Assembly (NCBI RefSeq): GCF_033568475.1
Contig: NC_133123.1
Span: forward strand, 155,573,753 to 155,637,752
DNA from: Henckelia pumila
Taxonomy: Eukaryota; Streptophyta; Magnoliopsida; Lamiales; Gesneriaceae
DNA length: 64,000 nucleotides
Direction of reading: 5' to 3'
Both the position numbers and the translations under genes were made by a program. Position 1 is the first letter of the stretch. Every line of letters starts with the position of its first letter. Of this stretch, positions 2,080-64,000 are shown piece by piece. The notes under the pieces are model-generated. The model saw only the letters and a program-made list of their open reading frames with translations, searched no databases and was not told where the DNA came from.

Positions 2080-4028
2080 TGTAACGCCCCAATTTTATCT
2101 TAATCGACTTTATTTGAGATAATCGGAGATTCCAGAGTTCAAGAGCCGACTTGATTTTGATCAGGGTCCTTTTTGCAAATTTTGGATTTTTCAGGGACTA
2201 AAGTGCAAATATTGAGATTGTTAGATATTTAAGCTTGAGTTGACTTACCTTTTCACTTCATCCCCTTCCCCAACACGCCTCCTCCCTCTCTAGACGCCAT
2301 GGACGTCTCCTTGAGCTCCCAGATTTCACCCCGAGCACGATCCGTCCGTTAGAATTTATTTTTGAAGGCAGATTAGCGATTACGGCTGCGAGAGCTTCGT
2401 TCTATCATAAGTTTTTCTATGATCAGATACATTCTAGTTTTGGGATGTTAGAATCGATTGAGTTTGGAGTATGTTGATCTTGGCAGAGTTCTGATCGTTT
2501 ATTCTTTGTCGGGTTTAAAATAGAGCGTCGTTTGGATTTGTTATGAATTTTTAGGCTTTAATTCGAAAATGGGACTTTTGGATTTGTTGGATTGGATTGG
2601 ATGAATTATTTGTTGTATTGAGTTGATATCGTTTTTATGATGCTGTCTGCGTTTCCGGTTTATCAGATTATAGCCGTTATGTCGCCGGTTTGAATTTTTG
2701 GGCTATAGTTTGGTTTGAATTGAATCGAACCGTTTTCAGTCGAGTTGGATTGTCGATATTGATCTCGAGCCTTTATTACTTCTTTTACAGATTCGTTTGC
2801 AGGCCGTTGAGTTTCGAGATTTCAAGAGTTGTATCGCTTTGAAGATTGTAGCCGGTATCGTATCGACTTGCTTATTATCGTTAGAATGTTAGAATGAATC
2901 TTGAATTGAGGAATCGTTGTTGTTTCCAGGTTTGGAGCATCTACGTTGTTGAAAGAGGTATAAGATGACTTAGACTGGAATGGAACGTGTGACTCGAATC
3001 CGACTTGATTCAAATGTTCCGAAGAATCACATACTTGCATGTTATTTGCTTTTACTTGAATTTAGCTGATTGAATTATGTTTGCATTGCATTCATCTTGA
3101 TCCAGAATCCTTGATTTGAGCAGCGGGCAGGACGACCCTTTTGATGATAGAAGTTTTGGGGATTATATTGTGAGTGGCCTGGGTGTAGCCGTTTCACCTA
3201 GTGCTAGCATACTCCTTATAGTCGCACCAAAGTCTAGAGGATGGAGATACGTAGCACCACCTCGATCGGGAGAGTCGGTGAGTCGTTTACGTGATCTCGT
3301 CCTCGGGATCCCAAAAGCAAAGCAGCAACTCTTTCGAGTATCCGACTTGATAATCCCAGATTTTAAAGACATGCATTGCATTTGGGAGTGTCTTGGGAAT
3401 TGCATGATTTATATTTGAATATCTAGAAGTTGATGTATTTCGTTTGAAATGCTTATCTGATAATGCATGTTTGTCTCTTTTACTGGGAATTGTATTCTCA
3501 CCGGATTATTCGACAGTTGTCTTGTCTTTGTATGTGTGCTTGGCAACAGGTGGGGCAGGACCGAGTCAGAGATCGCATGGCTAAGTGGATGAGTTGATAG
3601 AGTGAGGCCTTGTTATTGTAGAAGTCGAATTTGTAATCAAACTTAGATTGTATTCGAACTCGATTTGTATTTGGATTTTGGAACTTAGAATTGATGAATG
3701 TTCTACTCTTTCTTGTAATTGAATACTTCTTCGTTGGAAAAGTGTTAGTTGAATTATGTCGGAGCCTTTCCGGGTGTTGGATTGCACTTTTGGAGCCTTT
3801 TTTGAGCTGAATCAGCAGGCCATGCGCGCCCGCGCCTGGTGTGGCACGCCCGCGCGTCCTGCTCTATTTTTCGGAGGCCCGGACAGGGCGTCAGGCGCGC
3901 CCGCGCCTCGGGTGGCGCGCCCGCGCGTCACCTGTTAAAAAAAAAAAATCCTTTGTTTTTAATCTTAGATCTTGTATGCTTAATTATTGTTTATTCCGAG
4001 ATTAGATGATTAGAATCGAGGTCTCACA
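2080..4028 (+). mobile_element. Solo LTR, Ty3-type TGTAACGCC family, inside the copia integrase region
   Basis: The 1949 bp sequence begins TGTAACGCCCC and ends CTCACA. It is flanked on both sides by CATTT (2075-2079 and 4029-4033), a perfect 5 bp target duplication, and the copia sequence continues on either side. No internal region is present, so this is a solo LTR left by LTR-LTR recombination. It shares blocks with the LTRs at 53729-59980 and 62413-64000, for example the stretch around 3475-3575. A GC-rich repeated module sits 100-205 bp from its 3' end. Confidence 0.93.
3824..3927. repeat. GC-rich paired-word module (GCGCGCCCGCGC type) in the solo LTR
   Basis: Four near-identical 13-base words start at 3824, 3844, 3895 and 3915. 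They form two pairs 20 bp apart, repeated with a period of 71 bp. The region is far richer in G+C than the rest of the LTR and is followed by an A-tract. The arms of a pair are only partly complementary. The spacing matches the hairpin modules at 4550, 11534 and 59695 and the module at 62117. Confidence 0.85.
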
Positions 4029-4033
4029 CATTT

Positions 4034-4440
4034 GATAAAGAACCAAATATTTCTCAATTGAGAATTTTTGGATGTATGGTGTATGTGCCTATTGCACCAC
4101 CTCAGCTATCAAAAATGGGTCCTCAAAGAAAAATCGGTATTTATATCGGTTATGATAGCCCATCAATCATTCGATATCTTGAGCCTCAGACAGGCGATGT
4201 GTTTACAGCACGTTTTGCTGATTGTCATTTTAATGAAGAAATCTTCCCAATGTTAGGGGGAGAAAAGAAACACATCGAAAAGGAAATCATATGGTATGTA
4301 CCATCATTGTTACATTTGGATCCAAGGACCAAACAATGTGAGAAAGATGTACAACAAATTGTGCACTTGCAAATAATTACAAATCAAATGCCATATGCAT
4401 TTGCAGACATAAAAGGGGTAACAAAATCATATATACATGT
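4034..4440 (+). mobile_element. copia integrase C-terminal and linker region between the two insertions
   Basis: The copia sequence resumes after the solo LTR with LRIFGCMVYVPIAPP, the typical motif downstream of the integrase core, followed by an acidic/basic linker. It ends at the CATGT target duplication (4436-4440) of the next insertion. Part of the broken element. Confidence 0.85.
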
Positions 4441-7197
4441 TGTGACGACCCGAGTTCTAATCTCTCGTTAATCAAATTCTTGTAATTCATTGTCAAAGAA
4501 TCAAAGACTAAATAACTAAATTTTTTTTTTTTTTTTAAACATGGAGCACCTCGCTCGATCGGTATAAAGATACCGATCGAGCGAGCCCTGCAGCTCAGCT
4601 CCTCGGTTGCAAACTTATCATGGCCTCGCTCGATCTGTGATATTTCACCGATCGAGCGAGCCAAGTACGCTCCAAACTCTGTTCTCAAAATCACAGCCTC
4701 GCTCGATCCGTGGCATTGTACCGATCGAGCGAGCACGTTTTTCAGAAACTAAAACAGAAATGCTGCTGCTGTCAAATAAGTCCTATCATGCATTTATCAT
4801 CTAATATAAGTTCATGCAAAGCCTATTTCAATATCATAAGCTACCATGCATTCTAACATGATCACGTTAATAGAAATGAATCATAACAAAGCCTTAAAAG
4901 CATAATCATAAGGGCTCATAATCATGCAAGAAGCAATGTTATTCATTCAAGATCAAGCTACACCATGTTGTTTCAAAGGATTTAAACATCTATCAAATCC
5001 TAAATACAACAACAAGATAACAACTAGATCATCTACAAGTTGTGAAACAAGTAGCTATAACAAGATCATGTTTAAAGCTCAACTTTACATCATGACAGCT
5101 CACTCAACCATCTAACTCGGATCATCACGCTATATCTCTTCAACCCTTGTTCTTCAAGATTGCCTTTGCCCTGTTCCATTCCCGCCTATTTCCATGACAC
5201 ATACAACATAACCATAGCCGGATAACTCCGGTGAGAAATATATTTCCCAGTAAAAGCAACTAAACATGCATATAAACATATATCAAGATCATGATATAAA
5301 AGTAATACAATGCATGTTTTAAAAATAAGGTTCATCTCTTCATTCGTAGGTTGGGATCCCGAGAAGTAGATATCATAACTAATCCACCGACTCTCCCGAT
5401 CGAGGTGGGGCTACTTATCTCACTTCTCTAGACTTTGAAGCCATTATATATGTAAATCAGACGCTAGACTAAAACAACCACCCAGGCCATACATATACAA
5501 TTCCTCAAATCGTCTATTCGAACGTTTCCGTTCATTTCAAAATCAAGGAATAAGTCTTGCAAGATGAATGCAACATATATCATCATCAAGGCATTCATAA
5601 CATCAAAAACTTATTCAACAACTCAAATGAAAGCACATAAGAGCAATTAAGCAAACAAGTATGTGATTTAGGGGAACTCGATACAAACCATCTCGAGTTG
5701 TATTCCCAATCAAATAGTAGTCCACTTTTACCTTCGTATTTCGTCTGTTCTGAATTCTTCAACCTCAAAACATGTACATCAATCTTCGTTCAATTCATTC
5801 TTTTTAGAATCGAGTCAAAATCATCAACACATCTTCAATCAAATGCATTTCAAATCTCAAGCGAACTTCCTCGGTTCACAATTCGACCTCTGGAGTTGAT
5901 TGAGCTCGTAACACGTCTGACATGTAAAGATTACCATGTAACAAAATCAGTATACAATCTCAATATCATTAGCTCAATCGTAGACTATCAGTATGGTTTC
6001 AAAACATAACCAATCATCGTAGCGATTGACAATCAGAAATCGTTACGGTATCGAATTCATTTCTACTTTCAACTCCATTCTTACGGTTTTTCATATCCGT
6101 TCATTGTCATTCAACTCTTCAAACCAACAGCTATTATCATAAACATATCAAAGAACATCTTATCTCGAAAATCATCTATCAAACTTGTCTCAAAATACGA
6201 ATCGACGGCGTAGCGATTAAAAATTGATAACCGACAAAATATCGACTTCGAATATAACTTCATATCATTATATATCATCAACACCAGCTAATTACCAGCA
6301 TAATCAGATGCTACACAAGTCGAAATCTATGCTGGTTATCATATGAATGTCATTCCAAGACTCAAGATTCAATTCGGTTTCGAATATACAACGCTAGAAT
6401 ATCGATAACATGATAAAACAAATCTACTTCTGATTTTTGCCCATATTCGAATTTCAAAACCTATTCAAGACATCATAGAACTTACATCAAATCGAAGGCC
6501 TCGTTGTAAGAATTCCAGAACATCTTTCGGAATTGAAATCGGATGAGCGGATCAAAAGTTACGGCGTTTTGAAACAATCGAATTCAAAGAAGTGGAAATG
6601 GTTTCGATACCTGTTCTTCCTAATTCTGAATTGCCACTCAATTACAAGTATACAATCTGATTCATAGCTTAGAAATCAGATATGTATTGACATATTTGCA
6701 ATATAGTCCCTCAAGTCTTCAGTAATTGCAATTCAGTCATCGGCCTTCGTTTTAATTCAATTTCAATCCTAAATAATTTAAGAATATTAGAATTTAAATC
6801 AAAACTCTAAATATTCCCACATTAAATATACTCGGATTAAAATAAATTAAATTCGGATTAATTAAATAATCCCGACCGTTTGCACCTCAGCCCTTCAAAT
6901 GTCAGTATGTGCAAATCAGTCCCTGATCGAGTTGTATCTTCAAAATTCATCTTCTTTAATTTCCGAAACATGGAATTAAATCTTAAATTTCATAAATATT
7001 CAAATCGAATATTTATTCTTTTAATTTAAGAATTCTCGGAATTTAATTCTCAAAATCCGTATATTTTCAAATTAAATATTTTCAGCTCGGAAATTAAATC
7101 TATCATTTTCATAACTTCTCAAATCAATATTAGCCCATAATATGGAATTTAATTCTCAAATTACATAATTAATAATTTAATATTTTCGGGCCTTACA
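4441..7197 (-). repeat. 3' LTR of the 4441-14173 element
   Basis: Read on plus it starts TGTGACGACCCG and ends GGCCTTACA; read on minus it starts TGTAAGGCCCG and ends CGGGTCGTCACA. It aligns along its whole length with 11422-14173. The three hairpins at 4550-4733 lie close to the 3' end of the LTR in element orientation. Confidence 0.95.
4550..4733. repeat. Three-hairpin module in the left LTR
   Basis: Three inverted repeats have arms at 4550-4563/4572-4585, 4625-4638/4647-4660 and 4698-4711/4720-4733. Each arm is a 14-base version of CTCGCTCGATCGGT paired with ACCGATCGAGCGAG, with exactly 8 bases in the loop. The first is perfect and the others have one mismatch each. The units are 75 and 73 bp apart. 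Linkers between units do not resemble each other strongly. Confidence 0.95.
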
Positions 7198-11404: not shown

Positions 11405-11416
11405 GCTCTGATACCA
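11405..11416 (-). other. Primer-binding site, initiator Met-tRNA type
   Basis: The minus strand reads TGGTATCAGAGC, the standard plant retrotransposon site complementary to the 3' end of initiator methionine tRNA. It lies five bases inside the 5' LTR boundary at 11422. It is not itself a tRNA gene. Confidence 0.93.
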
Positions 11417-11421
11417 CCTGT

Positions 11422-14173
11422 TGTGACGACCCGAGTTCTAATCTCTCGTTAATCAAATTCTTGTAATTCATTGTCAAAGAATGAAAGACTAAATAACTAA
11501 AAAAAAAAAAAAAAAATTTTAAACATGGAGCACCTCGCTCGATCGGTATAAAGATACCGATCGAGCAAGCCCTGCAGCTCAGCTCCTCGGTTGCAAACTT
11601 ATCATGGCCTTGCTCGATCCGTGATATTTCACCGGTCGAGCGAGCCAAGTACGCTCCAAACTCTGTTCTCAAAATCACAGCCTCGCTCAATCCGTGGCAT
11701 TGTACCGATCGAGCGAGCACGTTTTTCAGAAACTAAAACAGAAATGCTGCTGCTGTCAAATAAGTTCTATCATGCATTTATCATCTAATATAAGTTCATG
11801 CAAAGCCTGTTTCAATATCATAAGCTACCATGCATTCTAACATGATCACGTTAATAGAAATGAATCATAACAAAGCCTTAAAAGCATAATCATAAGGGCT
11901 CATAATCATGCAAGAAGCAATGTTATTCATTCAAGATCAAGCTACACCATGTTGTTTCAAAGGATTTAAACATCTATCAAATCCTAAATACAACAACAAG
12001 ATAACAACTAGATCATCTACAAGTTGTGAAACAAGTAGCTATAACAAGATCATGTTTAAAGCTCAACTCTACATCATGACAGCTCACTCAACCATCTAAC
12101 TCGGATCATCACGCTATATCTCTTCAACCCTTGTTCTTCAAGATTGCCTTTGCCCTGTTCCATTCCCGCCTATTGCCATGACACATACAACATAACAATA
12201 GCCGGATAACTCCGGTGAGAAATATATTTCCCAGTAAAAGCAACTAAACATGCATATAAACATATATCAAGATCATGATATAAAATTAATACAATGCATG
12301 TTTTAAAAATAAGGTTCATCTCTTCATTCGTCGGTTGGGATCCCAAGAAGTAGATATCATAACTAATCCACCGACTCTCCCGATCGAGGTAGGGCTACTT
12401 ATCTCACTTCTCTAGACTTTGAAGCCATTATATATGTAAATCAGACGCTAGACTAAAACAACCACCCAGGCCATACATATACAATTCCTCAAATCGTCTA
12501 TTCGAACGTTTCCGTTCATTTCAAAATCAATGAATAAGTCTTGCAAGATGAATGCAACATATATCATCATCAAGGCATTCATAACATCAAAAACTTATTC
12601 AACAACTCAAATGAAAGCACATAAGAGCAATTAAGCAAACAAGTATGTGATTTAGGGGAACTCGATACAAACCATCTCGAGTTGTATTCCCAATCAAATA
12701 GTAGTCCACTTTTACCTTCGTATTTCGTCTGTTCTGAATTCTTCAACCTCAAAACATGTACATCAATCTTCGTTCAATTCATTCCTTTTAGAATCGAGTC
12801 AAAATCATCAACACATCTTCAATCAAATGCATTTCAAATCTCAAGCGAACTTCCTCGGTTCACAATTCGACCTCTGGAGTTGATTGAGCTCGTAACACGT
12901 CTGACATGTAAAGATTATCATGTAACAAAATCAGTATACAATCTCAATATCATTAGCTCAATCGTAGACTATCAGTATGTTTTCAAAACATAACCAATCA
13001 TCGTAGCGATTGACAATCGGGAATCGTTACGGTATCGAATTCATTTCTACTTTCAACTCCATTCTTACGGTTTTTCATATCCGTTCATTGTCATTCAACT
13101 CTTAAAACCAACAGCTATTATCATAAACATATCAAAGAACATTTTATCTCGAAAATCATCTATCAAACTTGTCTGAAAATACGAATCGACGGCGTAGCGA
13201 TTAAAAATCGATAACCGACGAAATATCGACTTCGAATATAACTTCATATCATTATATATCATCAACACCAGCTAATTACCAGCATAATCAGATGCTACAC
13301 AAGTCGAAATCTATGCTGGTTATCATATGAATGTCATTCCAAGACTCAAGATTCAATTCGGTTTTGAATATACAACGCTAGAATATCGATAACATGATAA
13401 AACAAATCTACTTCTGATTTCTGCCCATATTCGAATTTCAAAACCTATTCAAGACATCATAAACCTTACATCAAATCGAAGGCCTCGTTGTAAGGATTCC
13501 AGAACATCTTTGGAATTGAAATCGGATGAGCGGATCAAAAGTTACGGCGTTTTGAAACAATCGAATTCAAAGAAGTGGAAATGGTTTCGATACCTGTTCT
13601 TCCTAATTTCCACTCAATTACACGTATACAATCTGATTCATAGCTTAGAAATCAGATATGTATTGACATATTTGCAATATAGTCCCTCAAGTTTTCAGTA
13701 ATTGCAATTCAGTCATCGGCCTTCGTTTTAATTCAATTTCAATCCTAAATAATTTAAGAATATTAGAATTTAAATCAAAACTCTAAATATTCCCACATTA
13801 AATATACTCGAATTAAAATAAATTAAATTCGGATTAATTAAATAATCCCGACCGTTTGCACCTTAGTCCTTCAAATGTCAGTATGTGCAAATCAGTCCCT
13901 GATCGAGTTGTATCTTCAAAATTCATCTTCTTTAATTTCTGAAACATGAAATTAAATCTTAAATTCCATAAATATTCAAATCGAATATTTATTCTTTTAA
14001 TTTAAGAATTCTCGGAATTTAATTCTCAAAATCCGCATATTCTCAAATTAAATATTTTCAGCTCGGAAATTAAATCTATCATTTTCATAACTTCTCAAAT
14101 CAATATTAGCCCATAATATGGAATTTAATTCTCAAATTCTATAATTAATAATTTAATATTTTCAGGCCTTACA
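11422..14173 (-). repeat. 5' LTR of the 4441-14173 element
   Basis: It is a near-identical partner of 4441-7197, with the same termini. It carries the same three hairpins at 11534-11717. Short frames recur in both LTRs (for example 5698-6009 and 12682-12993), but they have no family resemblance and are chance frames. Confidence 0.95.
11534..11717. repeat. Three-hairpin module in the right LTR
   Basis: This is the same three-unit structure as 4550-4733, with 14-base arms and 8-base loops. A few arm positions have changed compared with the left copy, slightly weakening pairing in all three units. Confidence 0.93.
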
Positions 14174-16603: not shown

Positions 16604-17916
16604 CTAGTCACCGTAGCACATGCATTGCGTGCGTAACATAACATATATATATATATATATATAGTATCTTATAAAAGTTGAGAGCTTTTTAGAAACCACT
16701 TCTCTTAGTCTAATATCTAGACATTATGTTTTCTTAACCATTTTATCATTTAACTTCACACATTCGTATTTGTTTTCATCTAATATTTTATTCCTCATTC
16801 TCCCAATCTTACTTCATCTTTCCACTTATTACCCCACTATCCACCCATGTTTCCTTCCACATTTTTTTAAACAAAAAAACTACATCAATTAACTAACTTA
16901 CTAGACACTAACTCCAATTATCCTCACGGATTTTCAATTTCATCATATTTTTTATTTGACTTCTAATTTTTCAAATGATTTTTCACAATAACATGTTGAT
17001 CAAAAGTAATAATTAGAAAGTGATCGTAGCAAAAAATATTTCGATTGCATGTGCCAAATTTACTAGTATACATAAAACTTGTGGATCGAAAATCCAATTG
17101 TTCAGTGTTTGAAGTAAACAACGGATGTGATGACATATTGACATTAATAAGAGTAGCTGTTATAAAATAATTATGTTTTTTTACGGTTGTTGAGTTTTTT
17201 TAAGTGGATAAATTTTGTATAAATTTATTTAAGAGACGAGCAAAATGAGAAAGAATTTTTGGTGTGTCCATGACACACCAAAAACAGTTTTTCTAATACC
17301 CTCAACTATTATAAAATAATAAAACTTGTGGATCGAAAATCCAATTGTTCAGTGTTTGAAGTAAATAACGGATGTGATGACATATTGACATTAATAAGAG
17401 TAGCTGTTATAAAATAATTATGTTTTTTTACGGTTGTTGAGTTTTTTTTAGTGGATAAGTTTTGTATAAATTTACTTAAGAGACGAGTAAAATGAAAAAG
17501 AATTTTTGGTGTGTCCATGGCACACCAAAAACAGTTTTTCTAATACCCTCAACTATTATAAAATAATAAAACTTGTGGATCGAAAATCCAATTGTTCAGT
17601 GTTTGAAGTAAATAACGGATGTGATGACATATTGACATTAATAAGAGTAGCTGTTATAAAATAATTATGTTTTTTTACATTGTTGAGTTTTTTTTAGTGG
17701 ATAAGTTTTGTATAAATTTACTTAAGAGACGAGCAAAATGAGAAAGAATTTTTGGTATGTCCATGGTACACCAAAAACAGTTTTTCTAATACCCTCAACT
17801 ATTATAAAATAAGAGACGAGCAAAATGAGAAAGAATTTTTGGTGTGTTCATGGCACACCAAAAACAGTTTTTCTAATACCCTCAACTATTATAAAATAAT
17901 AATAATAAATAGTAGA
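16604..17916 (-). mobile_element. Non-autonomous Helitron with internal tandem repeats
   Basis: On the minus strand the element starts TCTACTATTTATT at 17916 and ends with a GC-rich hairpin near 16611-16640 and CTAG at 16604. The flanking bases are A and T, the usual Helitron target, with no duplication. The 5' part (GTTGAGGGTATTAGAAAAAC, then a GGTGTG..CACACC palindrome) closely matches the small Helitron at 51618-51819. It encodes no Rep/helicase. A second Helitron-like start (near 16662) and CTAG end (17066) on the plus strand suggest another Helitron nested inside. Confidence 0.75.
17074..17900. repeat. 247 bp tandem repeat, about 3.3 copies
   Basis: The phrase AAAACTTGTGGATCGAAAA recurs at 17074, 17321 and 17568, giving a period of 247 bp. 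A partial extra copy of about 70 bp ends the array near 17900. Each unit includes a palindrome TTGGTGTGTC-CAT-GACACACCAA or a close variant. The units are nearly identical, so amplification was recent. The array lies inside the Helitron and multiplies its 5' terminal region. Confidence 0.93.
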
Positions 17917-51042: not shown

Positions 51043-52599
51043 GAGTTAGTTGCACCAACTACCCCTGTGAAATATTGAAAACGCACATTTCTCCCCTGTG
51101 AAATTTTAATAAGCATCTTCAACTCTGACCTTTTAAAAAATTATCACACTCGCCCCTTCAGATAAGTGATTGTTGCGCGCGCCCCCCTCATGCGACTGTG
51201 CAAAGATTTTGATATTTTTTTTTGCACCAAATACCTCTGTGAAATATTAAAAATGCATATTTGACCCCCGTGAAAATAATTTTTAAATCTATTCAACCCA
51301 TAATACACAATTTTTAATAAAATCCAATTATAAATATTTAGCAAACATTTTTTGTTTTATTAATTTTTATTTTTTTATTTTAAATATTTTATCATTAATT
51401 AATTATTTTCTAAAAAATATTATTACATTATCCTGTTATCATTATTTTATTAAACTCAATTCGTATTTTCAACTTTTTCATTAAACATGCATTCATAAAC
51501 AAGTATTTAAATAATTTCAAAAACCAAAATATTGAACTAAACTGATAAGTTCAAACATATTGTTTTTTTTAATTTAGGATTATATATTATTGAACCAAAA
51601 TTTAAATTTTTCGAGAATCTATACTATTATATAAAAGTTGAGAGCATTAGAAAAACTACTTTTGGTGTGACATTAACACACCAAAATTTCTTTCCTATTT
51701 TGCCCTTCTATGGTGTAAATTTATACAAAACTTTTACACTAAAAAAAACTCAACCACCTTTAAAAAAATATGTATATATATATTATGTTGCACATGCAAC
51801 GCGTGTGCTGCGTCACTAGTATTCATTGCATAATTTGTAATAAATAATAAATAATAACATGCTTATATAATTCTAAATTGAAAAAGTAACATTCATGAAC
51901 TTATCATTTGGTTCAATATTTTGGTATTTTTAGATATTTAAATCCTTATTTATGAATCATGTTTAATAGAGAAGTTGAAAACACGAAGTGATTTGATAAA
52001 ATAATGATAACGAGATAAAGTAATAATTTATTAGAAATAAATTAATTAAAAATTTAAAATTTAAAATAAAAACAAATAAAATTAAAAATATTTGGTACTT
52101 ATCATTTTGATTTAATATTTTGGTACTTTTAGGTATTTAAATCTCGTTTATGAATGCATTTTTAATGGAGAAGTTGGAAACAAAAAAAAAGTTTAATAAA
52201 ATAATTATAACAAGATAAAATAATAATATTTTTTAGAAAACATTATATAATCATAATAAATTTAAAATTAAAAATAAAATTAATAAAACGAAAAATGTTT
52301 GCTAAATATTTTATAATTAGATTTTAATAAAAATTGTGTATTATAAGTTGAATAAATTTAAAAATTATTTTCACAAGGGTCAAATATGCATTTTTAATAT
52401 TTCACACGGGTATTTGGTGAAAAAAAATATCAAAATCTTTGCACCGTCGCATGAGGGGCGCGTGCGCAACAATCACTTATTTGAAATGGCGAGTGTGCTA
52501 ATTTTTTAAAAGGTCAGGGTTTAAGATGCCTATTAAAATTTCACAGGGGAGAAGTGTGCATTTTCAATATTTCACAGGGGTGTTTGGTGCAAATAACTC
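51043..52599. mobile_element. Foldback element with long inverted repeats (MULE-like), no transposase
   Basis: The left end GAGTTAGTTGCACCAACTAC and the right end pair as an inverted repeat for about 290 bp. Pairing continues more loosely further inward. The flanks carry TAATAATTAG on both sides (51033-51042 and 52600-52609), a 10 bp target duplication. Inside the right half a segment of about 200 bp (near 51896 and 52096) is tandemly duplicated. A 202 bp Helitron is nested at 51618-51819. No protein is encoded. Confidence 0.85.
51618..51819 (+). mobile_element. Tiny non-autonomous Helitron, 202 bp
   Basis: It starts TCTATACTATTATATAAAAG and ends with a hairpin (GCACATGC..GCGTGTGC) followed by CTAG. 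It lies between A (51617) and T (51820), the standard Helitron target. A GGTGTG...CACACC palindrome near 51666-51690 is shared with the larger Helitron at 16604-17916. Confidence 0.85.
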
Positions 52600-57071: not shown

Positions 57072-57189
57072 TTTGAATCATCATCAATGGACAATAAAAA
57101 CATAAAATCAACATAACCTGTGCACATGTTCAACCTATACACATCATCACTCCAATATGCCTTATCATTCCCATCATTAATTCATTACT

Positions 57190-57193
57190 CATT

Positions 57194-57243
<50 letters not shown>

Positions 57244-57408
57244 GCATATACATGACATTTACTGTACATATATAACACATTCAAAAAATATATATATAGT
57301 ACTGCATATACAAAACACAATATATATATAGTACTGCATATACATGACATTTACTGTACATATATAACACATTCAAAAAATATATATATAGTACTGCATA
57401 TACAAAAC

Positions 57409-57445
<37 letters not shown>

Positions 57446-57760
57446 GCATATACATGACATTTACTGTACATATATAACACATTCAAAAAATATATATATA
57501 GTACTGCATATACAAAACACAATATATATATATATATATATTTCACACATGTAACACAATATATATAGATAACACATTAATATAGTACTACACGATAGAT
57601 TCCTTTCAAAAAAAAGTACTCCACGATAGATATATAAATATATATATATATATCTATATAACACAAACGAAAAAATATATATACATCACCAAAATATTGT
57701 ACGTAACACCAAAATACTGTACGTACATATATATATATATAGATATATATAACACAAAAA
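57190..57760. repeat. TA microsatellite with a duplicated GTACTGCATATAC unit
   Basis: Long TA runs alternate with copies of a unit starting GTACTGCATATACATGACAT at 57239, 57331 and 57441 (spacing 92 and 110 bp, the difference lying in TA length). It sits between ORF1 and the 5' end of the Harbinger element. Frames across it are low-complexity Tyr/Ile strings and are not genes. Confidence 0.9.
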
Positions 57761-59694
57761 ATATATATATAACAAACGTTCACTTATCAATAAAATCATT
57801 CAACGGATTATTGCTAAAAAAATTGTACCAACAGTTTGATTACCTTGAAAAGAATGGAGGAGAAACAAGGGAGCAGAAAGTTGAGAGACGTTGACGGCTT
57901 GATGTTTTAGGTTAATGAAAAGCTAAAAAAAGCTCTAAATTTGGGCTTCTCAAAAAGCTCTATTTCTAGCTTAAAAAAGTGCTTTTTTAAGCACTAAAAG
58001 CCCACTCAAACACTTTGGTAATTAGAAAAGCACTTTTTTTTTTTTTTTTTATAAAAAAAGTGCTTTTTTAAGCTTGGTTTTTGAAATCAAACGGGCCCTA
58101 AGTCTTCATTCTTGCTTCCTCCTTCCTTCTCCACGCTATCTCCTCCATGGAAGAAACCCAACACGCCCCTTCAAGCTTTTGGGTCCCGACTTCTACTCGA
58201 TCCGTCTGACAGATTTTTAGTTTGAAGGTAGATTAACGATCCCGGCGACGAGGGCTTCGTTTTATCGTAAGTATTTCTTCGATCAGTTATACTTCAATTT
58301 TTGGATGTTTTTAGAATCGAATGAAATTCGGATATGTTGTTCTTGAGCTAAGAGAGATCGTATATTTGAAGTCGACTCGGAAAAAGAAAGTCGTTCGGAT
58401 TTGTTATGAATTTTTAGGCATTATTCGAAAATTGGGTTTTTGGGATTTGTTGGAATTGAATTGTTTTGTTGGATTATTGTTATTAAGAGTTGTATTGGAT
58501 CGATAGATTGCTGTCGGTGTTTTCGGTTGATCAGATTATAGCCGTTATGCCGCTGATTTGAGATTTCAGAATTTTAGAAGTTCGTTTGAGTTTGGAATTT
58601 GGGTTGAATGGGATTGTTTGTTATTGAATGTTTTGTTTCTCCGTACAGATTGGGTTGAAGAAGATTGAGTTCAGAGTTCGTGGAATCCAAATTGTCGGAA
58701 AATTGTTAGAGAGGTTTGGTATCAAGTTAATTCCTTTCGTTGAGTTTCGATTGAATGAATTCTTATTTGAATTCTTGTTATTTGTAGCTTGTCTGGATTT
58801 CAGCTACTTCGAATCAAAGAGAAGAGGTATAAGACGACTTTGGAATGGAATAGGACAATTAACTTGAATCCGGATTGATTCGAGTGTCCTAGAGGAAAAT
58901 CACATACTTGCATGTTTGAATGCTTACTTGAATTTATAATTGAAAATTATATTCGAATGCATGAGATTACATATGCATTCATATTGAACCATTGATTCGT
59001 TCTCAGATGGAAATAAACGATTTGGGGATTATAGTTGAGGGGCATTGGTAGTAGAGACGAACTCCAATGACCTGGATAACTCTCTATAATGTTCCAAAGT
59101 CTAGAGGACGCAAGGTATACCGCATTCACCTCGATTGGAAGAGTCGGTGAGTCATGGGAATATCTTGGCCTCGGGATCCCAATTTACAAGAAGAAATTCC
59201 TTTGATTATCTTGACAGAAAATTCTTGAACCTCAAGGACATGCATTGTATTTTATTGCATTACGAATGACATTGTTGTATATATATATCATGATTGGATA
59301 TATTACGTGGAAATATATGTTATGTCTCTTTTACTGGGAATTGTATTCTCACCGGATTATTCGGCTGTTATCTTTTCTTTGTATGTGTGTTTGGAAACAG
59401 GTGGGGCAGGATCAAGTCAGAAGATGCATGACTAGATCGAGTTGGAAGTGATAGGAGTGAGGCGCGGTTTAGAAGTTGAACATCGCATTCGAATTTGTTG
59501 TACTAGTTGTACTTTAATTTGGAAGAACTTAGATTAACTGCATGTTCTACTAGATTGATTATTGTACGACTCTAGAACTACCTTGTATAGTCTTGTATGT
59601 TGTTGGATTGATGATTTTTTAATGCATGTCGATTGAGTTGAGTTGGCATGTTTTGAGAGCAGCTTCTACTGCTTTCTTTGTTGCAGGGTGTGGC

Positions 59695-59875
59695 CGCTCG
59701 ATCGGTTGAAGTTTACCGATCGAGCGAGCACCCCTGTATGGAGGCAGAACCAGGGAATTTTCATGGCCGCTCGATCGGTCAAGTTATACCGATCGAGCGG
59801 TGGCCTTAAAAAATTTTTGGACAGAAACTTTGATCTTTCTGCCCGCTCGATCGGTAGAGTTTTACCGATCGAGCG
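59695..59875. repeat. Three perfect hairpins in the solo LTR
   Basis: Arms CGCTCGATCGGT and ACCGATCGAGCG occur at 59695-59706/59715-59726, 59768-59779/59788-59799 and 59844-59855/59864-59875. All three stems are perfect over 12 bp and all loops are 8 bases, though loop sequences differ. Units are 73 and 76 bp apart. An A-tract follows at about 59890. Confidence 0.96.
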
Positions 59876-60721
59876 GAGCACTATTCACCCAAAAAAAAAT
59901 TTATTGCTTTTTGCTTTGACTCTTGTATGCTTTTAGAAGGGATTATTTTTAATTAGATGATTAGAACCGAGTTCCTCACAGTAGTGCCGCGATACCAAGA
60001 GAATGTCAGCATCAAAGATCGTTGATGATAGTGACAAATCCAACGGGAATAATTTGAATTCTATCTGAAGAACATTTTGAAATTATGATCGTTGCAAACC
60101 AAAGCTTATAAATAGGGATCTTGATCAAAGTTCAAGGGTTGACACACTGCCACTGCAAGAATTTCAAAAACATCTTACGCTCAAGACTTAATCAAGAAAC
60201 TCGAAAGCTCACACATTGATAAGCATCATTCTGACCATTGAAGGGTCGATCTTTGTGCTAAAAGATTTCAAGTTGTATTTACTCTACTGTAAAATCAGTC
60301 TAGTACTGAAACCAAGGTGATATACTAGGAGTTCTTATTTAGGCAGTGTTAAGTCCTAAATCGGATTGGGTTTGTGCAAATTGCTTGTATAAATCAAAGT
60401 CTTCTATGAATCCTTCCGAAGTGGAAGTAGGGGTGACGTAGGAGTATTTGAAATCTCCGAACATCCATAAACAATTTCTTGTGTCATTTCAGTTTACCAT
60501 TCATCCTCATACTTCATACTCCTAAACTGATTTACACCAAGTGTTTTAAATCTGTAGCTTGACATCTTTCCGCACACATTCTGTTTGTCAAACTACATTT
60601 GACACTAAGATAAACCTTGAACTCATTCTTAAAAGGATCGAGTTCCATTGTACTTAGCTAAAAACTGCTTGAAAGTATATTCACCCCCCCCCCCTCTAGA
60701 CTTTCAACCGAACCTATCAAG

Positions 60722-60760: not shown

Positions 60761-61630
60761 TTGAACAAAATGACTTCATTCAGCAAAATTCCTATGTTCT
60801 CAAAGGAAGATTTTGATGACTGGAAAATTCGCATGCAAGCACATCTATCAGCACTAGACGATGACATGTGGTTTGTTATCACTGATGGACCTCTTGAGAT
60901 CACAAAGGTCAATACTGCTGTAGCCCTCTCTGGAGGTGCTCCACAATACATTGAGAAACCTAGAATCGAATGGACTGCGAAAGACAAAAAGAAGGCAAAT
61001 CTGGACAATGTGGCTAAGGATATCTTGTATAAGACTCTTGACAAGAATACCTTTAGCAAAATCAAGACATGCAAGACTGGAAAAGAGATTTGGGAAAAAT
61101 TGATCCAACTTTGTGAAGGAAATGAACAAACAAAGGAAAACAAGCTATCTGTAGCTACTCAAAAATTTGACAACATCAAAATGAAACCAGGAGAATCAAT
61201 GGCAGAGTTTGATGAAAGAGTAAGTAGCATTGTTATTGAGCTCAACGGATTGGGCAAAACATATCCCAACAGGGAAGTCATTCTCAAAGTAATTCGAGGA
61301 CTTCCTAAAGAATGGGATGTGAAGACAATGGCCATGAGAGAATCGAAGGACCTGAACAAATTAGAACTGCATGACCTGTTTGCAGATCTAAAAGCATATG
61401 AATTCAAGTTACAAACTCGAGAGGAAGATCAGTCTACCTCACAATTGACCAAGGCCTTGACTGCAGTAAAAATTGAGTCACCGGCCAAAACAAAAAAGTC
61501 AGCAGAACAACTGAGCAGTGATGCCATGTCCTTGTTTGTAAAGAAATTTGGCAAATTTATCAGAAGAAACCAAGAAGGATCACACAGAAGAAGTTTCCAA
61601 AAGAAGGATTCAGTTAGTTTATCTCAATAA
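60761..61630 (+). mobile_element. copia gag remnant
   Basis: The frame shows UBN2-type gag: FSKEDFDDWKIRMQAHLSAL near the start, then IWEKLIQLCEGNEQTKENK and FDERVSSIVIELNGLG. No zinc knuckle or pol is seen after it, because unrelated Ty3-type sequence begins soon after 61630. The element is a truncated fossil. Confidence 0.88.
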
Positions 61631-62412: not shown

Positions 62413-64000
62413 TGTAATGCCCCGATTTTATTATAATTAAGTTTAATCGAGTTAATCAGGGTTTTCAGTAATTGATGATTGTTTTGATATTTCGCAGAGG
62501 GTCACTTTTCAACTTTTGAGAAATAAAGGACTGAAATGCAAAAGTTGGATATATATATTATTATTAGAGGCAATTTGACCATCACCCATCACCTCACCAT
62601 CACTCTCTCCTTCTTCCTTCCTCCCCATCCGTGCGTACCGTTCAGCAGCCATGGGAGATGCCTTTTTGAGCTTCCTTTCCGCTCGATTCGCACGATCCAA
62701 CCGTTAGATTTTCATTCCGAGTTGAGATTCACGATCACCGCAACGAGGGCTTCATTTAGACGTAAGTTTTGCTACGATCTCTTGAACTTCGATTTTGTTG
62801 AGTTGTCAGAATTTGATAATATTGGAGTATGTCGTTCTTGAGCTAGTATAGATCGTGTATTCGAAGTCGGTTTGGAAAAAGAACGAAGTTTGTATTTTAT
62901 ATGATTTTAGAGGTGAAATTCGAAAATGATGATTTTGATTGAGGTTGGATTTGAGTTGTTTTGATGGATTGTGATGATGATTGAGTTATTGTGATTGTTG
63001 TTTGATGGTTTGTATTTCCGGATAGTCAGTTTATAGCCGTTATGCCGTCAAAATCGAGTTTGAGTTATCGGTTTTTGTTCGGTTTGAGTTGTATATCGAA
63101 TTTGATTGAGTTGAATTCCGAGTTGATATTGAGTCCGTATTCGATGTTTTGACAGTTGATTGAGGATTCGGGAGTTGATCGAACTTGGAGACTTGTTTAT
63201 CGATTGAAGAATTGAAGACGGTATATTATTGATTGTTGTATCGACTTTGAGTTTGTTATCCGAATAGACTATGATATCGAGTTATCTATAGTTGACAGGA
63301 ATCACTTGAAGTTTCGAGAAAAGGTAAAAGTCGACAATGAACGAATGGGAACGAATACTCGAGATCGACTTATTCTCGAGTTCCCGAAAATCACATACTA
63401 CATGTTTATTTGCTTGAATGAATTTGATTGTTATTCTATTTTCACTTTCATTCCATATTGAGCCGATTATTCAATTCATTTTGAAGATAGACGTTTTAGG
63501 GAGCTATATTGAAGTGGCTTTGGATTTCGAGTTTTTCCAAGTGCCAGAATACTTCTTATAGTTGCTCTAGAGTCTAGGGGTTGAGTTGAACGACATCCAC
63601 CCCGAATGGGTGTGTCGGTGAGTTGTTGTGAAGACTTGGCCCCGGGATCCCAACCGAATAACGATTGATATTTTGATTATCTGATTTGATAGTCCCGAGT
63701 TTTGAAGTCATGCATTCATTCATTCTTATTTTGATTTGTTACTGATTATTACATTTCAATCTGAGGTGTTTACTTGATATTGCATGCCTGTCTCTTTTAC
63801 TTAGAAATTATATTTCTAACCGGTTTATCCGGCTGTTGTTTTTGTTTGTATGTGTACTTGGCAACAGGAGGATCAGGAGCTGTACCAAGTCGTTTGGGCT
63901 AGCTCGGGATGTGATGATAGAAGTGAGACACCGTGTATCTTAAGGTCGTACCTTTTGGATTTGTACTGTTTTGTTTAGTCAAACGAATCCCTACCGTAAA
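62413..64000 (+). mobile_element. LTR of the TGTAACGCC family, truncated by window end
   Basis: It starts TGTAATGCCCCGATTTT and follows the same plan as 2080-4028 and 53729-59980: a GTTAGATTTTCATTC leader-like block, the GTTTATAGCCGTTATGCCG phrase near 63028, the CTCTTTTACTTAGAAATTA block near 63791 and CTTGGCAACAGGAGGATCAGG near 63857. The hairpin or GC module expected near its 3' end would lie beyond 64000. Whether it is solo cannot be seen. Confidence 0.85.

Follow-up and report, generated by a model that had tools for sequence, protein, structure and literature searches.

Near the 3' end of an LTR in the window, by which the whole analysed stretch of 64,000 nucleotides is meant, three hairpins follow one another at nearly even distances. 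The question raised by this locus is whether they constitute a structure of the R/U5 RNA or an array of protein-binding sites in the DNA, both of which had been proposed in an earlier note made from the letters of the window (the sequence-only reading).

The array of the window and its copies

All three units carry the arms CGCTCGATCGGT/ACCGATCGAGCG without a mismatch (3/3) around loops of 8 nt, namely TGAAGTTT in unit 1 (59695), CAAGTTAT in unit 2 (59768) and AGAGTTTT in unit 3 (59844), which bears out the three perfect hairpins with constant 8-base loops described by the sequence-only reading. The unit starts likewise agree with its spacing of 73 and 76 bp, and its placement of the array near the LTR 3' end stands as well, as the last arm stops 105 bp before the LTR end at 59980. 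Its remark that the loops differ holds in part: the sequences are different, but they are not free, since in sense the loop tends towards (A/T)RRR-T-Y-T-Y, and 124 of 135 units have T as its fifth base. The features of this array and of the further arrays in the window are as follows.

58100..59980, forward strand: chromovirus-type LTR with the array; 3' end ...GATTAGAACCGAGTTCCTCACA at 59980, 5' limit nominal
59695..59726, forward strand: palindromic unit 1, CGCTCGATCGGT-N8-ACCGATCGAGCG, as read from the sequence
59727..59767, forward strand: linker 1, 41 bp; between diverged elements of the family its length is conserved, its sequence not
59768..59799, forward strand: palindromic unit 2
59800..59843, forward strand: linker 2, 44 bp
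59844..59875, forward strand: palindromic unit 3
59891..59899, forward strand: A-tract 3' of the array, a plain A-tract in the window copy
4552..4731, reverse strand: second array of three units, two of them with one stem mismatch, in the LTR at 4435-7197
11536..11715, reverse strand: copy of the 4552-4731 array in the partner LTR at 11416-14173, with more stem mismatches
3826..3926, forward strand: two pairs of GCGCCCGCGC-like direct repeats, a different word at the equivalent place of a related LTR

Judged from its sequence, the LTR at 58100-59980 is a solo or 3' LTR, because no primer-binding-site-like sequence follows its end. The copia-type gag 3' of it (PF14223, 1e-20; 60761-61630) belongs to a separate element, and its use as a sign of a Sirevirus was dropped in view of full array-bearing elements with Ty3 domains and a chromodomain. 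Just 5' of the first palindrome (59680-59690), as in many LTRs, lies a pyrimidine-rich stretch ending in CAG, a candidate splice acceptor. Elsewhere in the window, 57164-57770 contains extended runs of AT dinucleotides together with a repeat of 121 bp spaced at 92 and 110 bp, and tandem repeats of about 247 bp occur at 17068-17812 and 51622-51768, an inverted relative lying 34 kb away.

With up to two mismatches allowed, the window holds 19 half-site matches against 0.73 expected, a number reached in 0 of 100 shuffles, which excludes a chance origin; 12 of the 19 make up the arrays at 4552-4731 and 11536-11715. The LTRs bearing these two arrays form one pair, 97.5% identical, with 5 differences at 72 arm positions and 0 at 84 linker positions. 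In the 3826-3926 array the repeats are 20 bp apart within a pair and the pairs 71 bp apart, and an A-tract follows.

Throughout the source genome (885 Mb) the exact 12-8-12 palindrome pattern occurs in 5,922 copies and a backward control in 0, and the 32-bp pattern yields 21,703 matches at up to two mismatches. Perfect arms enclose loops of 4-7 in 25 copies and of 9-14 in 9; since the other loops of 4-14 total only 34, the 8-base loop accounts for 5,922 of the 5,956 copies with perfect arms. The exact hairpin pattern gave 0 matches in the viral contigs and bacterial genome contigs searched, and the 12-base arm was not found in the literature searched. As called, the 55 sampled arrays of this word (CGATCG) comprise 41 with three units, 10 with two, 3 with four and 1 with one, counts that may miss degenerate units; the three-unit arrays become 43 of 55 once two false overlapping loop-11 calls are removed from two four-unit arrays. 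Two LTRs at three units each give about six units per element.

Host elements and constraint on the arms

By their sequence, the arrays are assigned to the 3' end region of Ty3/gypsy chromovirus-type LTRs, and further gypsy contexts with such arrays are the stretch before a post-integrase ORF and probable LTRs in which the array lies upstream of a putative TATA box. Chromovirus-type context accounts for 48 of the 55 sampled CGATCG arrays, as assigned by context, the other 7 lying elsewhere. In most of the 48, an A-rich tract comes next and the LTR ends about 96-130 bp further on (43 ends, by string search), TTTAAAA stands within 45 bp after the array in 33 of 48, and in many copies the primer-binding-site-like sequence TGGTATCAGAGCG is found just after the LTR. 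Two elements examined for domains, L024 and L025, both contain Ty3-type RT, RNase H and an integrase zinc finger between their LTRs, L025 also a Ty3-type gag; the chromodomain PF00385 scores 26.5 bits in L025, above the cut-off of 25.1, and 23.3 in L024, below it. We take this chromovirus lineage to be Tekay/Del.

In L008 and L020 the array is flanked by an integrase core on one side and a Transposase_32 ORF on the other, each domain scoring above cut-off; the same holds for L009 with an integrase match below cut-off, and in L040 the Transposase_32 ORF after the array is the sole part identified. L084 shows the same order as L008 and L020, with integrase (by eye), a CTCGAG-type array and the Transposase_32 ORF. 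A pyrimidine-rich leader comes next after the arrays between integrase and this ORF. L017 and L021 were put outside the chromoviruses by context alone and L034 by eye, without a Pfam match, while two Pfam-matching ORFs outside the LTR pair of L029 were left out. From match spacing and context, L064, L066-L071 and L073-L078 appear to be LTRs of one lineage. Head-to-tail LTR-like units, each with an array, were observed in L031 (1-9001; about four of 2,126 bp) and L026 (1-7108; two of about 4,322 bp), and in L034 a further palindrome, GTATCGCGATTAACATCGCGATAC, lies directly 3' of the CGATCG array, in sense.

A comparison of stems and linkers across the family, which the sequence-only reading had advised, came out clearly on the side of the stems. 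It covered the 666 pairs formed by 37 three-unit arrays, preselected with both intervals at 65-80 bp and without copies 2-4 of L031; in the most diverged pairs (236 of the 666) the arms are 93.2% identical, the linkers 51.8% (shuffled 50.7%) and the loops 47.9%. Among units within one array, linkers are 56.9% alike (shuffled 50.2%) and arms 92.9%. The latter figures bear on the explanation that the arrays have no function and go back to tandem duplication and recent expansion, with template switching or gene conversion making the stems uniform. The units are indeed direct repeats and whole-LTR tandem copies exist (L031, L026); homogenisation, however, would carry the linkers along with the arms, and a similar pitch common to four words, described below, also speaks against this explanation, which we hold to be very improbable.

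Inserted copies behave differently from the family. In five LTR pairs, which leave out L026 as a tandem copy (the same sequence follows both copies), 10 of 336 arm positions differ versus 58 of 3,012 other LTR positions (p = 0.22). Outside CpG the figures are 3/168 for arms versus 51/2,922 for other positions, and at CpG 7/168 versus 7/90 (p = 0.25), and no post-insertion protection of the arms is detectable in these five pairs, a small sample. Since, once inserted, the arms diverge at roughly the rate of the remaining LTR sequence, the constraint acts on replicating lineages. Hence, the argument that old neutral DNA would not keep perfect stems applies to the family, whose arms are constrained, but not to inserted copies, which change freely.

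Pitch, exchange of words and pairing

In the 48 chromovirus-type arrays, 87 of 87 intervals between units fall at 70-78 bp, with a mean of 73.5 bp and an SD of 1.4, which corresponds to 7.0 turns at 10.5 bp per turn; 12 intervals in the 7 arrays of other context have a mean of 73.0 bp. These intervals include LTR-pair and tandem copies and are not independent, because the elements are related. Linker length has an SD of 1.26 bp (n=81, without copies 2-4 of L031), the stretch of about 111 bp from array to LTR end one of 8.5 bp (n=43, ends by simple string search), and the roughly 313 bp between an upstream motif and the array one of 54 bp (n=22).

Other words were surveyed in 20 LTR stretches beside matches to the upstream flank of the array, 40 of 5,655 candidates being listed, and at the same LTR place these stretches hold CGATCG units, CACGGACC units or GC-rich direct pairs 20 bp apart. 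CGATCG units are 32 bp long with linkers of 41.5 bp and a pitch of 73.5, while CACGGACC units measure about 40 bp, with arms 30 bp apart, a spacer of about 20, linkers of 34.6 bp and a pitch of 75.0 for those 21 of 23 intervals that fall between 60 and 90, including two of 81.5-82. The GC type (GCGCCCGCGC-like), whose half-sites are direct and not inverted, has a pitch of 71.5 in 4 of 5 intervals and of 51 in the remaining one. CTCGAG palindromes form pairs about 22 bp apart, and their 17 intervals include 5 at 62-65.5 and 10 at 71-74, with a mean of 69.2. The words exchanged at similar pitch are thus CGATCG, CTCGAG, CACGGACC and GCGCCCGCGC, and it is the pitch, more than the linker length, that is alike across unit types. 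All three inverted words are present both in chromovirus-type LTRs and elsewhere, and L076 has a single array mixing a CACGGACC unit with a CTCGAG-like unit.

A further regularity concerns the sequence downstream. For the two other inverted words 15 arrays were fetched, of which two are chromovirus-type; in 9 of the remaining 13, all outside chromovirus LTRs, a TATA-like string stands 70-95 bp after the last clear word, where 0.67 are expected and 9 were reached in 0 of 2,000 resamplings. These 9 strings stand at 75-88 bp; two further arrays have theirs at 115-117, and the last two at 154 and 185.

On balance, we consider it rather probable that the array is a DNA-level cis-regulatory array of dyad sites on one face of the helix, linked to promoters. 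Each unit would represent a dyad site whose half-sites are separated by about two turns of the helix, or about three in the CACGGACC type, and to which a DNA-binding protein, most likely one of the host, would bind as a dimer or in pairs. Arrays mostly consist of three such units at distances of about seven helical turns, a pitch that would place the bound proteins on one side of the DNA, where they could act together on a nearby promoter. The observations behind this reading are the palindromes, the arms constrained from one element to another, a pitch that stays fixed, words exchanged at a similar pitch and the TATA-like distance outside chromovirus LTRs; the constant loop length of 8, the arrays located between integrase and the Transposase_32 ORF and the lack of a wobble preference also count in its favour. 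From the former we infer protein binding, a host-encoded protein and a drive on transcription. Because the words vary between families while the spacing stays near seven turns, an array of DNA-binding sites is indicated rather than an RNA structure. The second proposal of the sequence-only reading, a protein-binding array, is therefore the one favoured, both by a pitch of 73.5 +/- 1.4 bp that persists despite random-like linkers and recurs with other words and unit lengths, and by the TATA-like strings in 9 of 13 arrays. A tyrosine-recombinase-like core site, for which 12-8-12 had been likened to the 13-8-13 core of loxP, was set aside, the CACGGACC spacer being about 20.

Several observations stand against the promoter array. 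A strict TATA (TATA[AT]A or TATATA) occurs within 100 bp downstream in 1 of 48 chromovirus-type arrays, the TTTAAAA found after 33 of these arrays may be a weak TATA or devoid of meaning, a GTAAGT motif that suggests an upstream start lies 5' of the array, and the arms covary (11 both-side changes versus 2.5 expected, see below), as those of an RNA stem would too. Helical phasing is opposed by the pitches of 81.5-82 (CACGGACC) and 51 (GC) and by the CTCGAG mean of 69.2, and the dyad model by the direct half-sites of the GC type.

A broader and more tentative proposal, doubtful as it stands, is a helical-phase promoter code, in which a seven-turn dyad-site module common to several gypsy contexts has its word swapped array-wide with the geometry kept. 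If true, it would point to one multimeric host complex with an exchangeable DNA-reading subunit or, alternatively, to an arms race that lets elements replace their words but obliges them to retain the geometry. The same pitch can be read as nucleosome or chromatin positioning, since three sites 73.5 bp apart span a core of 147 bp and would mark its edges and dyad; the pitch is half of 147 bp and three units are found in 41 of 55 arrays (43 without false calls), but two-unit and longer arrays exist, and we attach hardly any probability to this idea.

Action of the hairpins in the genomic RNA, in packaging, dimerisation, strand transfer or polyadenylation control, is an alternative that deserves closer weighing, even though we judge it unlikely. 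The folding of the R-U5 RNA that the sequence-only reading had called for did give a strong stem fold (59684-59985; z = -9.1, equal stability in 0 of 100 shuffles), and the array lies about 105 bp 5' of the LTR end, in many copies just before the primer-binding-site-like sequence. In addition, chromovirus-type LTRs show a recurrent motif of the form CGAGGGCTTCG...GTAAGT, 1.1-1.8 kb 5' of the array (at 1.3-1.8 kb for window 58240-58340 and 62725-62800 and for the LTRs of L003, L024, L026, L027, L029 and L038). Of the 31 LTRs read over 1.2 kb or more, 12 have GTAAGTT at a distance above 1.1 kb and 8 the fuller motif; these are raw counts, uncorrected for chance, and several loci offer too little upstream sequence. 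As a candidate donor site for an intron of the 5' leader, the motif suggests a start upstream; if so, the array of chromovirus LTRs would lie in a transcribed leader, and a role in RNA would be possible.

The arms themselves were compared pair by pair, second LTRs of pairs and tandem copies being left out of the both-side test and of the distinct-unit counts but retained among the 135 units, in the comparison of stems and linkers and in the length and interval figures. Changes on both sides of the arms number 11 versus 2.5 expected (maximum 8 in 1,000 shuffles), which implies that the arms stay symmetrical, a property that a dyad site needs as well. There is no preference for wobble pairs: the 135 chromovirus-type units in sense contain 30 G-U and 32 A-C pairs, the 93 distinct units 24 and 29, and the intermediates at pair 12 are C.A in 10 (9 distinct) versus U.G in 1. 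At pair 10 the G.G mismatch occurs 10 times versus 4 for the compensated C-G (5 versus 4 among distinct units). Genome-wide, 450 single-arm variants of this pair outnumber 93 double variants; the doubles nevertheless exceed what independence predicts, and they probably represent few lineages, because few loop types occur among the matches listed. Moreover, a similar pitch with differing linker lengths is unexpected for a flexible RNA, the loop length is fixed at 8, and the arrays of other contexts lie upstream of TATA-like strings. The R/U5 RNA structure proposed by the sequence-only reading is accordingly disfavoured by the absence of a G-U preference, the tolerated pair-10 mismatches and the TATA-like strings. 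Kissing-loop dimerisation was rejected, as few loops are self-complementary and loop pairs lack covariation (p = 0.58, 67 distinct loops).

Transcribed palindromes may also feed small-RNA pathways, a role reportedly suggested for the palindromes of maize Sireviruses. The hairpins here are CpG-rich, perfect and of very high copy number, and the turnover of words could reflect escape from cross-matching small RNAs. Such a silencing-related function would predict neither the fixed DNA pitch nor the fixed 8-bp spacer, however, and the constraint in replicating lineages suggests a benefit to the element; we regard it as improbable.

Relation to known LTR motifs

The tandem cis-acting boxes of plant LTR promoters are short and are not phased 12-8-12 palindromes. 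Promoters with such boxes form part of the background of a study on Sireviruses (Bousios et al. 2010, PMC2829016), the accessible part of which describes the closest counterpart of the present arrays. The repeated motifs (RMs) of these Ty1/copia elements are compact palindromes of dyad symmetry with a short spacer and a sequence that differs between elements, they number at least 8 copies per RM-bearing element and up to 32, and they are located 5' of the TATA box within the LTR and, where an ENV gene is present, upstream of that gene as well; they are reported as Sirevirus-specific and have a CGG-CCG core, e.g. TCGGTCYCACCGA in Barbara (PMC2829016).

As far as that part of the paper extends, the arrays resemble RMs in being a palindromic repeated motif of plant LTRs whose word varies between elements. 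The CGG-CCG core is common to part of the words: it stands in CGGT-N8-ACCG and CGGACC..GGTCCG, and by inspection it is in the CGATCG and CACGGACC words and not in the CTCGAG and GC words. The arrays differ from RMs in their Ty3/gypsy rather than Ty1/copia contexts (domains of L024 and L025), in usually having 3 units and about six per element instead of at least 8, and in the 8-bp (or about 20-bp) spacer, the pitch of about 73.5 bp and the several words in one genome. For the position upstream of ENV, the Transposase_32 ORF that some of the arrays precede is a candidate counterpart.

Published repeats of plant gypsy elements between pol and the 3' LTR are likewise family-specific in sequence, but they are described as tandem, and neither a palindrome nor a helical pitch is mentioned in the accessible text. 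Judged by titles and abstract starts, none of the papers among the matches listed deals with phased palindromes of gypsy LTRs, a search with most subscription journals outside its scope, and the accessible parts of PMC11963269, PMC6911290 and PMC7264820 do not describe them. Taken together, palindromic LTR motifs, reported as a speciality of Sireviruses, now extend to thousands of copies in Ty3/gypsy elements. Their rigid seven-turn pitch, which outlasts the turnover of the linkers and recurs with several different palindromes, provides a concrete rule, open to testing, by which host factors may be brought to LTR promoters, and four words in one geometry constitute a natural series of variants for seeking the protein.
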